From assembly GCF_007860095.1 (NCBI RefSeq), contig NZ_SJPT01000011.1, positions 62,001 to 126,000 of the forward strand: 64,000 nt of DNA, in the 5' to 3' direction. Position 1 is the stretch's first letter, and each line of letters begins with the position of its first letter. The notes under the pieces are model-generated. The model saw only the letters and a list, made by a program, of their open reading frames with translations, did no database searches and was not told where the DNA came from. The position numbers were made by a program, and so were the translations under genes. This document shows, piece by piece, positions 48,760-55,756 of this stretch. Source of the stretch: Novipirellula galeiformis. GTDB taxonomy: Bacteria; Planctomycetota; Planctomycetia; Pirellulales; Pirellulaceae.

Positions 48760-49153
48760 CTCGAATCGGGGGAGTCGGGTAGGGCCGGTTCCGACCGGCC
48801 AATTTCGATCGGTCACGTCGGCGATGATGATGTTGCTGTAAACGCCAGCCGATACAGCTTCCTCGAGTCCTTGGCCAAGCAACTCGTAATCTTAATCTTA
48901 CTCATAATCTTAATCCCGTCTGCGCAAGCCTGCGCCGGACCGGAACCAGTCGGAGAAGATTAGGATTAAGAGTAAGATTATGATTAAGAGATAGAAGGAG
49001 GTTACGTCGAGTAGTGCCGGTTCCCACCGGTCGATTTCGATCGGTCGTGCTCGCGAAGGCGATGTTGCTGAAAAAGCCAATCGGTACTGCTTCGTGGAAT
49101 CCTTGGCCAAGTAACTCTTTAACGCAGCCCCAACGGGGCGGTCCTGTGTCAGC

Positions 49154-49176
49154 CCAGGGTGAAGCCCTGGTTTTTT
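49154..49176 (+). terminator. terminator-like hairpin inside array I
   Basis: CCAGGG-TGAAG-CCCTGG followed by six T, a compact intrinsic-terminator form on the plus strand, about 395 bases after the PL26-like gene. It may end that transcript or belong to the repeat itself. Confidence 0.5.
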
Positions 49177-49196
49177 GTTTCCGAAATGGGACCTGC

Positions 49197-49252
49197 AGCC
49201 CCAACGGGGCGGCCCTAAACCCATGGTTGATTCGGGCCGCCCCGTTGGGGCT
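49197..49252. repeat. perfect 19-base-stem palindrome nested in array I
   Basis: AGCCCCAACGGGGCGGCCC and its exact inverse, separated by an 18-base loop. The same element with small changes lies at 52163-52218 in array II, and a half copy at 49126-49141. Confidence 0.9.
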
Positions 49253-49573
49253 TTGTGTTCGTAAACGTGTTCCGTTGCCCCAGGGCGGCGCTGTGCTCTG
49301 CCCTGGGCTGACATAGGGCCGCCCCCTTGGAGCTGAACAGTCACGCCCAAATCCATTCGTAGTCAATCGCAAGTCCATAGCCGATTCGACGATCCTCATT
49401 GCCTGATAAAACTTTTGAGGTGCCGCCGACGATATAATCGACGCGTGAGTGCACCGGATGCAGGTTGATGAAGCAAGCGGTAGCTCGATCAATCGAAATC
49501 GAATCAAATCACCCAAACGTAAAGACACAATTTAGGTCGGGGGAACCATTGCACACTAACGTGGCAAAAAACA

Positions 49574-50443
49574 ATGAGCGACTGGCAACCTAACATCTGC
49601 GACTGCCCAGCCGGTGACTTGATTACGATCGATTCGCAGCATTGGGACGCCTGTTTGCGCAGGCTTTCCAAGGGAGATCTCGCGGGCGTTCATATTTCGG
49701 CAATGTCCCGTTACGCGGAGAAGGACCTTGAGTTCTTACGAGACTTTCCCAACATCACGGCAGTCGCTATCAGTTATGGGAAAGGAATTGATCTGGCGGG
49801 GCTGCAGTATCTCAAAGGCTTGCAGTACTTGACTTTGGATACCTACAAAGGTCCGCCGGATTTGGGCCAGTTCTCGAAACTGCGGACGCTGAGCGCCGAG
49901 TGGTCGCCGCAATTGAGTCCGGATGAACGCAACGAGCAACTAGAGAATTTGACGCTTTTTAAGTACAAGTGTCCCCGCTCTGATTTGAGTTGCCTTCCGG
50001 TGGTTCCATCGCTAAAACACCTCGAATTGAACTTGTCTGCGATCACTTCGCTCGAGGGAGTTGAGCGGCAGCGGCATGTGCAATCGCTGCATTTCTACCG
50101 GTTTGCGAAGTTAACCCGCATTGCCGATATCACCTCTCTGTCAGGCGGGAGTTTGCAGCTAGTTAAGTTCGAGCTGTGTAAGAAGATCGAAGACATCGAT
50201 CAACTTGGACAATTGGAGAGCGTTAAGAAGATGACGCTTGATCGTTGTGCTGACATTAAGGACTTGGAGTTTCTGCGAGGATGTTCGCAGCTGGAAGAGT
50301 TCGTCATCTTGGACACGAAGATCCTTAGCGGTGACCTTCGTCCGCTTCTTGATCTACCGAAGCTGAGGTATTTTTGTACTTCCGATAAACGTCACCATTC
50401 TCATTCAAAAGCTGAGATCAACGCCTTGCTGCGAAGTAGGTAG
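49574..50443 (+). CDS. leucine-rich-repeat protein
   Basis: 289 residues without signal peptide. From about residue 55 onward there are irregular repeats of roughly 20-25 residues with LxxLxL cores (LKGLQYLTLDTYKG, SLKHLELNLSAITSLEGV, SVKKMTLDRCADIKDLEFL, QLEEFVILDTKI), a cytoplasmic LRR solenoid for protein binding. The end is His/Lys-rich. It sits alone between repeat array I and a gene-free stretch, followed by a NYN-LOTUS gene. No enzymatic domain. Possibly an accessory or immunity-type protein, but nothing in the sequence proves it. Confidence 0.78.
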   Translation: MSDWQPNICDCPAGDLITIDSQHWDACLRRLSKGDLAGVHISAMSRYAEKDLEFLRDFPNITAVAISYGKGIDLAGLQYLKGLQYLTLDTYKGPPDLGQFSKLRTLSAEWSPQLSPDERNEQLENLTLFKYKCPRSDLSCLPVVPSLKHLELNLSAITSLEGVERQRHVQSLHFYRFAKLTRIADITSLSGGSLQLVKFELCKKIEDIDQLGQLESVKKMTLDRCADIKDLEFLRGCSQLEEFVILDTKILSGDLRPLLDLPKLRYFCTSDKRHHSHSKAEINALLRSR

Positions 50444-51102
50444 GACCGGTTCCTACAGAGCGGGGTTCGAGGGGCTGTTTGGTTTTCTTTGTGAGCTTTG
50501 TGCCCTGTTGTGGCTAGAAAAGTAAAAGACGATGCCACCCAGCGAATGGACGTGTCAGAACGACCAGAGTTTGCCGACGATATCGGAGGTTGCGGTTATG
50601 GAGATGGGCTGGCCACGAAAGGGCACGAGGGACACAACGGAAGAAAAGAAGGTGATGTTAGCGGGCGTACATTCTTAATGCAGTAGAGGAGGGCTTCGCC
50701 GGAGGCAGGCTAAGTGTTCGATTTTCGATTGGCATTGCAGGACGAAGAAAAGGCGAACGGGGTCGATTCGAACGTGCCGGCCTCCGCGTCGTGGATGGAA
50801 GACAGGTTGAAAAATGGGAGGTTAAGAAATCGGAACACAAAATCAAGGAAACCGATTCCGACAGCGGTGTAGCGGGGGAAGGAGAGGAACGAACGGTGGG
50901 AACCAGCCCTACTTTTGCTTATTAATCTGGCGATTGACGGTACAAATCGCGTGCTCCACTTTTCAGCCGTGACCGACGCTATAATCGACCGCGGGGTGGC
51001 ACCCAACACGTTTGTCGCAGCGACCTTCATGCCGTGCTTCGGTCTACGCCTCTTGCTGTGCCCCATTCCCTTGCTCACCGTTCCCTTGAGTGATCGACAT
51101 TC
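50444..51102. other. gene-free stretch with decayed repeat fragments
   Basis: Between the LRR and NYN genes. GTAGGACCGGTTCCTAC near 50441 and an inverted GTGGGAACCAGCCCTAC near 50895-50911 resemble the opening motif of the large repeats. Open frames here are low-complexity and unsupported. Confidence 0.5.
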
Positions 51103-51828
51103 ATGCCTGACAACAGTCTCGACGACAGCATTGCGTTACTGATTGATGCGGACAACGCGCCGGCCGCAAAGATCGACTTCATCATCTCCGAACTGGCCAC
51201 CTACGGCGTCGTCAATATCCGAAAAGCCTATGGAAACTGGACCAAGCGTGCGCTGGATGGTTGGATCAAGGTGCTGCATGAATATGCGATTGCCCCGAAA
51301 CAATGTTTCGACCTGGTGAAAGGAAAAAACGCGGCCGACATGTCGCTGCTGATCGACGCCATGGACATCCTCTACACCAAGCAGGTCAATACGTTTGGTC
51401 TGGTTTCGTCGGACTGCGACTTCACCCCGCTGGTTCTTCGGCTGCGAGAGGATGGTAAGCAAGTCATCGGATTCGGCCGACAAACATCGCCGGAGGCCTT
51501 CGTGTTGGCGTGCAGTCATTTCATCTATCTGGACGAAGACGACACCAGCAAAACGCCGCAGAAGAAGAAGGAGAATTCGCTCTCCTCGCTAAAACAAAAC
51601 ACCAAACTGATCAACACGCTTCGGTCGGCCGTCAAGGACGCAGCCGACGAAGATGGTTGGGCATCGCTTGGCCCCGTAGGGTCTTACATTTCCAACCAAG
51701 GACCGTTCAATCACCGCACCTACGGTTTTCCAAAACTCAGTGACATGTTTGAGGCGATCGATCTGTTCGAAATCAAAAAGAGCAAGCAAGCTGGCCGAAC
51801 CGCCGTTTACGTAAGGCTCCGAAAGTGA
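51103..51828 (+). CDS. NYN-domain ribonuclease-like protein with C-terminal OST-HTH/LOTUS domain
   Basis: 241 residues. N-terminal NYN (PIN-like) domain: IALLIDADNAPA with the first acidic pair near 16-18, NWTKRALDGW, NAADMSLLIDAMD and VSSDCDFTPLVLRLRE, giving the acidic metal site of LabA/DUF88 nucleases. Residues 168-241 (TLRSAVKDAADEDGWASLG, GFPKLSDMFEAIDLFEI) form a LOTUS winged helix that binds RNA. Likely a metal-dependent RNA-processing or RNA-surveillance nuclease. Repeat array II begins at its stop codon. Confidence 0.9.
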   Translation: MPDNSLDDSIALLIDADNAPAAKIDFIISELATYGVVNIRKAYGNWTKRALDGWIKVLHEYAIAPKQCFDLVKGKNAADMSLLIDAMDILYTKQVNTFGLVSSDCDFTPLVLRLREDGKQVIGFGRQTSPEAFVLACSHFIYLDEDDTSKTPQKKKENSLSSLKQNTKLINTLRSAVKDAADEDGWASLGPVGSYISNQGPFNHRTYGFPKLSDMFEAIDLFEIKKSKQAGRTAVYVRLRK

Positions 51829-52700
51829 GTCGAGTAGGGCCGGTACCGACCGGCCGATTTCGAACCGTCACGCTCGCGATGGCGACGTTGCTGTAAACGC
51901 CAATCGATACGGCTTCCTCGAGTCTTTGGCCAAGCAACTCATAATCTTAATCCCGTCTGCGCAAGCCTGCGCCGGACCGGAACCAGTCGGAGAAGATTAG
52001 GATTAAGAGTAAGATTATGATTAAGAATTAAAAGGTGGCCACGTCGAGTAGTGCCGGTTCCGACCGGCCGATTTCGATCAGTCACGCCCGCGATGGCGAC
52101 GTTGCTGTAAACGCCAATCGATACGGTTTCGCCGAGTCCTTGAACAAGCAACTCTTTAACGCAGCCCCAACGGGGCGGTCGTAAACCCGTGGTTGATTCG
52201 GGCCGCCCCGTTGGGGCTTTGGTTTGTAAACTGTTCCGCCCCCCCAGGGCGGCGCTGTGCTGTGCCCTGGGCTGACATAGGACCGCCCCCCTTGGGGCTG
52301 AACAGTCACGCTCGCGATGGCGACGTTGCTGTAAACGCCAATCGATACCGCTTCCTCGAGTCCTTGGCCAAGCAACTCGTAATCTTAATCTTACTCGTAA
52401 TCTTAATCCCGTCTGCGCAAGCCCGCGCCGGACCGGCACCAGTCGGAGAAGATTAGGATTAAGAGTATGATTAAGAATTAAAAGGTGCCACGTCGAGTAG
52501 TGCCGGTTCCGACCGGCCGATTACGGTCGATCACACTCGCGATGGCGACGTTGCTGTAAACGCCAATCGATACAGCTTCCTCAAGTCCTTGAACAAGCAA
52601 CTCATAATCTTAATCCCGTCTGCGCAAGCCTGCGCCGGACCGGCACCAGTCGGAGAAGATTAGGATTAAGAGTAAGGTTAGGATTAAGAAATAGAAGGTG
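51829..52700 (+). repeat. repeat array II: about four tandem ~190-260-base units
   Basis: Units begin near 51829, 52043, 52304 (opening motif missing) and 52492. Each has TTGCTGTAAACGCCAATCGA, a CCTTG...CAAGCAACTC segment and, except the second, the long hairpin (CTTAATCCCGTCTGCGC arm, GGAGAAGATTAGGATTAAG arm). The second unit carries the nested palindromes instead. Similarity between units is roughly 90 percent by eye. Same orientation as array I. The array fills the whole interval to the GGT gene; no gene is supported within it. Confidence 0.88.
52163..52218. repeat. nested palindrome in array II
   Basis: AGCCCCAACGGGGCGG...CCGCCCCGTTGGGGCT around a loop with GTGGTTGATTC, the counterpart of the element at 49197-49252. 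A CCCAGGGCGGCGC...GCCCTGGGC pair follows at about 52244-52271. Confidence 0.88.
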
Positions 52701-55060: not shown

Positions 55061-55756
55061 ATGCAGCCCATCGTTCAGATCTCACTTGACTTGACCAATA
55101 TCGCTGAGGCGATCGAGACCGCGCACTTGGCGATTCGCGCTGGCGTCGATTGGCTCGAAGCCGGCACGCCGCTGATCCTGGCCGAAGGACTGCACGGCGT
55201 GCGCGCGCTGCGCAGCGAATTCCCTAATGTGCCGATCGTCGCGGATTTGAAGACGATGGACGGTGGCTATTTGGAAGCCGAGATGATGGCCGGTGCCGGC
55301 GCGACCCATGTCGTCGTGATGGCTCGCGCTCATGAGGAAACCGTCCGTTGTGTGGTCAAGGCCGGAAAGGACTTTGGCGTCCAAGTGATGGGTGACAATA
55401 TGGTTTCCGATGACATGGTCGCCGGTGCGAAATGGTTGGAGGATCTCGGCTGTGACTTTGTTATCCATCACATCGGCTTTGATGAACGTCGTGGGATCGC
55501 CGCCCGAGGCCAGCGCATGCCAAGTCCGCTGGACCAACTTCGCGAAGTTTGTGAAGCGGTCAAAGTGCCGGTGCAAGCGGTCGGTGGGCTGAGTTTAGAG
55601 CAAGCGATTCAGTGCCCGGCTTACGGCGCGCCCTTGGTTGTGCTGGGCGCCCCGCTGACGATCGACGCCGACTCGTTCAAAACCGCCGATGGCGATCTGG
55701 AGTCGTCGCTACGCTTGATCTGCGATGCGGTGCACTCGCAACGGGTGGGCGATTGA
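55061..55756 (+). CDS. 3-hexulose-6-phosphate synthase-like protein (OMP decarboxylase superfamily)
   Basis: 231-residue TIM barrel. Family marks: ISLDLTNIAEA with the first Asp, EAGTPLILAEG, and the DxKxxD metal motif as VADLKTMD near 62-67. The later HTGYD motif of hexulose-phosphate synthases is altered to HHIGFDERRG, with a longer following loop. HPS condenses formaldehyde with ribulose 5-phosphate; relatives decarboxylate keto-gulonate 6-phosphate. No 6-phospho-3-hexuloisomerase gene is adjacent, so the pathway is uncertain. Two hairpins follow the gene. Confidence 0.82.
   Translation: MQPIVQISLDLTNIAEAIETAHLAIRAGVDWLEAGTPLILAEGLHGVRALRSEFPNVPIVADLKTMDGGYLEAEMMAGAGATHVVVMARAHEETVRCVVKAGKDFGVQVMGDNMVSDDMVAGAKWLEDLGCDFVIHHIGFDERRGIAARGQRMPSPLDQLREVCEAVKVPVQAVGGLSLEQAIQCPAYGAPLVVLGAPLTIDADSFKTADGDLESSLRLICDAVHSQRVGD

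Follow-up and report, generated by a model that had tools for sequence, protein, structure and literature searches.

Six hairpin-bearing repeat units surround two genes in a 64-kb stretch of the Novipirellula galeiformis genome (GCF_007860095.1, contig NZ_SJPT01000011.1, positions 62,001-126,000; hereafter the window, within which all coordinates are given), one encoding a leucine-rich repeat (LRR)-like protein and the other a protein with NYN and OST-HTH/LOTUS domains. NYN is a ribonuclease-type domain, and the question raised by this locus is whether the RNA-like repeats constitute an RNA system dedicated to it or accumulated there as mobile DNA. We consider it likely that the array is a mosaic of dispersed repeats, some resembling miniature inverted-repeat transposable elements (MITEs) and others of the repetitive extragenic palindrome (REP) type, that landed jointly and were tandemly amplified, rather than a locus-dedicated RNA system. 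This reading is carried by the composition of the array, the dispersal of its parts, a long hairpin that in a set of 20 genomes is nearly confined to the genus, three spacers that are empty in a congener, and the association of relatives of one palindrome block with a Y1 transposase gene.

The array (48774-52700) comprises six direct repeat units on the + strand, with starts at 48774, 49006, 51829, 52043, 52267 and 52492; two units lie to the left and four to the right of the LRR and NYN-LOTUS genes (Table 1). The fifth start is a register position: the first ~33 nt of unit 5 are missing, the REP among them, and its linker picks up again at 52300. Each unit follows the same order: a REP hairpin tagged with GTAG (five of six units), a locus-specific linker, and then either a long hairpin with an inner GCGCA/TGCGC stem-loop (four units) or, at the position of that hairpin, a GCCCCAACGGGGC palindrome block of the REP/terminal inverted repeat (TIR) type (units 2 and 4). 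The sequence-only reading had assigned the long hairpin to every full unit, which holds for four of the six and fails for the two that carry the block instead. The units are composite, because the long hairpin is dispersed at ~45 places in the genome while the first 110 nt of a unit match this array only, plus one 27-nt REP match (40 of 55 candidates scored).

Pairwise identity within the array is 81-96% for the six linkers and 94-97% for the four long hairpins, the latter compared over 48900-48998, 51937-52037, 52393-52487 and 52600-52700; gene conversion or selection could account for the closer resemblance of the hairpins. The left module (48774-49347) duplicates 51829-52311 with the internal order kept, a unit with the hairpin followed by a unit with the palindrome block, and the longest exact match between the two sides is 90 nt (48900 versus 51937). 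The repeats are beyond chance, because 200 simulated 5.5-kb sequences (first-order Markov) contained no exact direct repeat longer than 15 nt. Related units in a single orientation, with long direct repeats on either side of the two genes, had been proposed from the sequence and are borne out by these measurements; the bracketed segment, previously put at 3 kb, measures about 2.5 kb (49348-51828). The six-unit array escaped Tandem Repeats Finder (TRF) when the window was scanned, probably owing to the divergence of its units.

Table 1. Repeat units, palindromes and genes of the array, in window coordinates.
Feature	Position	Strand	Remarks
Unit 1 linker	48774..48883	+	GTAG-REP hairpin 48779-48799, locus-specific sequence, terminal left-end remnant (CGAGTCCTTGGCCAAGC) of MITE-like element
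Unit 1 long hairpin	48884..48998	+	AATCTTAATC stem, inner GCGCA/TGCGC; copy of dispersed family
Unit 2 linker	49006..49115	+	GTAG-REP hairpin 49011-49031
GCCCCAACGGGGC palindrome block, REP/TIR type	49123..49347	+	Replaces hairpin; relatives bracket Y1 transposase gene in G001
LRR-like protein gene, 289 aa	49574..50443	+	TAG stop shared with GTAG of REP-like sequence
Degenerate GTAG-REP	50440..50460	+	
Degenerate GTAG-REP, reverse orientation	50892..50912	-	
NYN + OST-HTH/LOTUS protein gene, 241 aa	51103..51828	+	
Unit 3 linker	51829..51938	+	GTAG-REP 51834-51854; begins directly 3' of NYN stop codon
Unit 3 long hairpin	51937..52037	+	
Unit 4 linker	52043..52152	+	GTAG-REP 52048-52068
GCCCCAACGGGGC palindrome block, second, shorter copy	52158..52311	+	93% identity to left copy over 153 aligned bases
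Unit 5 linker	52300..52376	+	Without REP and first ~33 nt
Unit 5 long hairpin	52377..52487	+	
Unit 6 linker	52492..52601	+	GTAG-REP 52497-52517
Unit 6 long hairpin	52600..52700	+	

The long hairpin belongs to a family that occupies at least about 45 distinct places in the 7.4-Mb, 30-contig genome of N. galeiformis (61 matches, counted by hand, of which 16 were discounted as reverse-strand self-overlaps or an adjacent piece). Two congeners, G001 and G002, carry it at no fewer than 15 places (22 matches) and 11 places (13 matches), respectively, again by hand count. Among the remaining genomes of the 20 searched, G012 gave one weak match and the other 16 gave none; because only the best 150 candidates were scored per genome, the place counts are lower bounds. 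In an alignment of twenty dispersed copies, the element has CTAG-N-CCTTAAACAAGC as its left end and GCTTGTTTAAGG-N-CTAG as its right end, and between them stand the long hairpin and then a second, small one. Of 34 dispersed copies, 11 preserve the two inverted ends to within 3 edits. Like bacterial MITEs, the element is short (243-318 nt, including CTAG and N at each end), has terminal inverted repeats and no recognised gene (non-coding as judged by length and reading only), and is dispersed. Array copies retain just its left end and hairpin. In two dispersed copies (L018:1034-1351 and L019:1029-1316), the inverted ends run on into copy-specific palindromes, such as GGGCGTCT, giving the appearance of an element inserted at the centre of a CTAG-bearing palindrome.

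Presence and absence between relatives further support the likeness to MITEs. In a comparison of 29 N. galeiformis loci with 800 kb of G002 plus a few other loci, both flanks were matched at L014, L027 and L086, and a single flank at L012. The element is absent from G002 at all three loci with both flanks matched; as judged by length and reading, the spacers there measure 84 versus 425 nt (L014), 31 versus 333 nt (L027) and 197 versus 689 nt (L086) in G002 and N. galeiformis, respectively. Keyword searches of the literature on planctomycete repeats did not meet with this family, which may be new.

A candidate parent comes from G016, a member of another family of the same order, in which the same end sequence was found beside CTAG at six contig edges (control, 1). 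These ends probably belong to an insertion sequence present in several copies, at which the assembly broke. The six edges (L122-L127) carry CTAG-N-CCTTAAA(C/T)AAGC and fall into two sequence subfamilies. One of them adjoins a fragmentary 73-aa reading frame for which neither Pfam nor NCBIfam gave a match. We take the putative insertion sequence to be IS1380-like, an assignment that Pfam and NCBIfam did not confirm, and a plasmid tblastn search for its family returned nothing useful. Two viral-contig loci were considered as relatives of the G016 element and set aside, as their matches are short and run antisense to a phage-like reading frame.

The second dispersed component, the GCCCCAACGGGGC palindrome block, gives 31 matches at 13 places in the N. 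galeiformis genome, two of them in this array. In G001, relatives of the block with 74-84% identity bracket, in opposite orientations, a 152-aa Y1_Tnp gene (G001:C782, L103) that scores 74.7 bits with Pfam, above the cut-off, and 53.2 bits with the NCBIfam IS200 model, just under the cut-off of 55. Bracketing by inverted copies was found in this congener only; in N. galeiformis itself, the four Y1 genes have no listed block match within 1.5 kb, the nearest being ~4.9 kb away on contig 2. Relative to the TIRYT/TIRtron arrangement of PMC3733652, the block is alike in that inverted copies of its relatives enclose a Y1_Tnp gene in G001 and in being dispersed without a gene in N. galeiformis, and it is unlike in that the N. 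galeiformis copies keep their distance from the Y1 genes.

The GTAG-tagged REP is likewise repeated across the genome. With at most 1 mismatch it gives 42 matches (control, 0), four of them in this array, and it forms seven opposed pairs elsewhere in the genome, 34-64 nt apart; behind the tag stands a stem-loop that, as read from the sequence, fits the 5-13 bp expected of a GTAG-REP. PMC3733652 also describes GTAG-REP and TIR-type repeats in bacteria and names Planctomycetes and R. baltica as carriers of GTAG-REPs, which consist of GTAG and a short stem-loop, occur as opposed dimers, and form clusters that are tandemly reiterated with flanking DNA. The REP of this array resembles those 24 families in general features, namely its tag and stem-loop, its opposed pairs and its tandem clusters with flanking DNA, and differs in that no cognate gene for a REP-associated tyrosine transposase (RAYT) was found. 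A REP-type transposase had been suggested from the sequence as one that could act on the hairpins, and REP-type elements are indeed present, in the form of the GTAG hairpin and the block with Y1-associated relatives.

Could the array then be mainly a RAYT-driven REP cluster, in which the GTAG hairpin is the active part and the remainder its passenger? The hairpin does head every linker except that of truncated unit 5, and its matches are numerous and partly arranged as opposed pairs. However, no Y1-transposase locus carries this REP (0 of 23 in N. galeiformis and the two congeners, at up to 4 mismatches and within flanks of ~1.5 kb, several of which were cut by contig ends), so that no RAYT gene flanked by the same REP was seen, and arrays on contig 7 (344-412 kb) contain the MITE-like hairpin with no match to this REP. 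We therefore regard a REP-driven origin as improbable. The long hairpin was not seen linked to Y1 transposases either.

In the mosaic that we favour, three parts come together. The first is a MITE-like element, roughly 240-320 nt long and bounded by CTAG-N-CCTTAAACAAGC inverted ends, that contains a long internal hairpin and whose left half forms the hairpin part of the units; the second is the GTAG-tagged REP at the head of five of the six units; and the third is the GCCCCAACGGGGC block, with relatives that bracket a Y1 (IS200-like/RAYT-like) gene in a congener, which occupies the position of the hairpin in units 2 and 4. The elements may have been transposed in the past by a transposase acting in trans and settled next to one another within an intergenic spacer. 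Tandem reiteration of the composite together with flanking DNA would then have followed, presumably through unequal recombination or replication slippage, and left copies to the left and right of the LRR-NYN segment. Repeats identical over 90 nt would offer a plausible route to deletion of that segment by recombination, or to its amplification.

Several observations weigh against this account. In contrast to bacterial MITEs, the hairpin element has target duplications that seem mostly decayed: they are for the most part unrecognisable, and CTAG stands at the exact expected offset in 4 of 11 left ends and 4 of 11 right ends, with both ends in L014 only (by eye). Nor was a parent seen at home, as no autonomous or complete transposon with these inverted ends was observed in the N. 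galeiformis genome. Searches with the end pattern gave 10 matches versus 1 in the control at no more than 1 mismatch in N. galeiformis, but 26 versus 36 in the reversed control at up to 2 mismatches, and at up to 1 mismatch the congeners did not rise above their controls (1 versus 6 in G001, 0 versus 2 in G002). The empty spacers of G002 are not base-exact, and the N. galeiformis copies at L027 and L086 are degenerate. The absence of the GTAG-REP from Y1-transposase loci counts on the same side, as does the greater likeness of the hairpins than of the linkers, which simple tandem duplication does not explain. Finally, a full dispersed copy folds far more stably than its shuffles (z = -8.1), and pairing in the stem reaches 87.8%, compared with at most 48.2% in slid versions, as expected for a stem read from these very sequences.

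The folding, together with a moderate value for the array unit (z = -2.95), bears on the alternative that the units are genes or processing sites for a structured non-coding RNA that the NYN-LOTUS protein might bind or cut. Such an RNA would also suit the NYN gene next door and the better conservation of the hairpins than of the linkers within the array. The pattern of change in the stem argues otherwise. In an analysis of the 15-bp stem, with 24 of about 45 N. galeiformis copies aligned, 87.8% of stem cells were paired versus 87.3% after shuffling; the covariation score was not significant, being reached by 37 of 500 shuffles; and the two pairs with changes on both sides were equalled in 76 of 500. 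RNAalifold found no consensus pair, and the covariance model R1 is consequently one of sequence only. Individual copies keep from 4 to all 15 of the pairs, some being largely stemless, and conserved pairing with compensatory changes, the hallmark of a structured non-coding RNA, was not found. Rfam returned no match in the window at the gathering cut-off; at nine loci that hold copies of the dispersed or array kind, searched at E values up to 1, its ten matches all fell below their gathering scores. Decay of mobile DNA appears to fit the stem better than selection on an RNA.

Location points in the same direction. Of the roughly 45 places with the hairpin, a single one lies beside an NYN gene. 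Relatives of the NYN gene, 89% identical, are present in both congeners, where their flanks do not match the window; TRF found no long-period tandem array near either, and the only hairpin matches there are partial: G001 has a single one, ~650 nt upstream, and G002 a weak one 1.7 kb off. A dedicated RNA at this locus is thus highly improbable, and the special tie between hairpins and genes that the sequence-only reading had entertained is not supported: most likely the hairpins arose as a by-product of the structure of mobile DNA and are no dedicated RNA substrate of the NYN nuclease. That reading had itself named what would count against it, namely unexpressed repeats scattered over the genome and LRR and NYN genes conserved in place without them. 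The findings agree with this in part: the repeats are genome-wide and NYN is conserved elsewhere free of arrays, but the LRR gene is not conserved. Integron attC cassettes were also considered and dropped on the motif alone, with no integron search made.

The two genes have identities as first described. Pfam gave two LRR matches, one just above the cut-off and one below, in the LRR gene, and recovered the NYN and LOTUS domains; PADLOC gave no match for either gene. The LRR gene was not found in G001 or G002, and only distant relatives occur in six other genomes. Its TAG stop lies within the GTAG of the REP-like sequence at 50440-50460 and, because the stop is part of that tag, the repeat may have set the 3' end of the gene. 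A common promoter-like motif (GACGNTATAATCGA) precedes the LRR gene (49411-49442) and the NYN gene (50958-50989), and a similar one lies upstream of NYN in both congeners.

A neighbourhood of this kind could alternatively be a composite element, with the two modules as the ends of a mobile cassette and the LRR and NYN genes as its cargo. The modules are direct copies with the same internal order and 90 identical nt. Among the 40 candidates scored per genome, neither congener has a DNA match to the flanking PcRGLX-like and gamma-glutamyltransferase genes, and both carry NYN at another location. Neither the LRR nor the NYN gene, though, is a transposase or integrase by a Pfam scan of these two genes; their relatives never share a contig in the other genomes searched; and on contig 7 the hairpin also stands beside housekeeping and polysaccharide genes. 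A cassette is accordingly unlikely. The neighbourhood is variable, and the repeats are not tied to LRR or NYN by any evidence.

Arrays of this type recur. On contig 7 of N. galeiformis, four spacers in the 344-412 kb stretch hold additional tandem hairpin copies that have a different linker, and one of these spacers is at the very end of the contig. The intergenic arrays of this stretch (L037-L040), some with the hairpin and some without, have TRF periods of 128-308 nt, the contig ending inside one of them, and the stretch also contains genes for a SpoU methylase, a prephenate dehydratase, a glycosyltransferase and an exosortase. A tandem array without the hairpin lies at 360 kb of the same contig. 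This stretch and the present array together account for 18 of the roughly 45 hairpin places, 16 of the 18 in tandem. G002 has tandem arrays of 250-330-nt units on contig 9, and G001 has a cluster of four hairpin copies on contig 1024. Because arrays or clusters are seen in all three congeners examined, the array described here is one case of a habit. In a syntenic region of the two congeners (L083/L084, G002 contig 9, 165-177 kb; L085, G001 contig 1024), which includes the tandem arrays of G002, each congener has hairpin clusters, at a distance of roughly 7-15 kb from its orthologue of the gene at window positions 55061-55756. More speculatively, and with a probability that we hold to be low, the nearly genus-restricted MITE-like element may provoke tandem duplication of its flanks through its own hairpin, in which case the arrays in the window, on contig 7 and on contig 9 of the congener would have arisen independently, each with its own linker, and would be hot spots of recombination at which genes are gained and lost.

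Overall, the constituent repeat types of a mosaic array are already known kinds. The tempting link between an RNA nuclease gene and adjoining RNA-like repeats is removed as unsupported. In its place, a planctomycete genus gains a defined MITE-like family that has inverted ends, is missing from three spacers of a congener and has a candidate parent element, as well as an example of how such repeats, together with REP-type palindromes, form tandem arrays able to reshape gene neighbourhoods.

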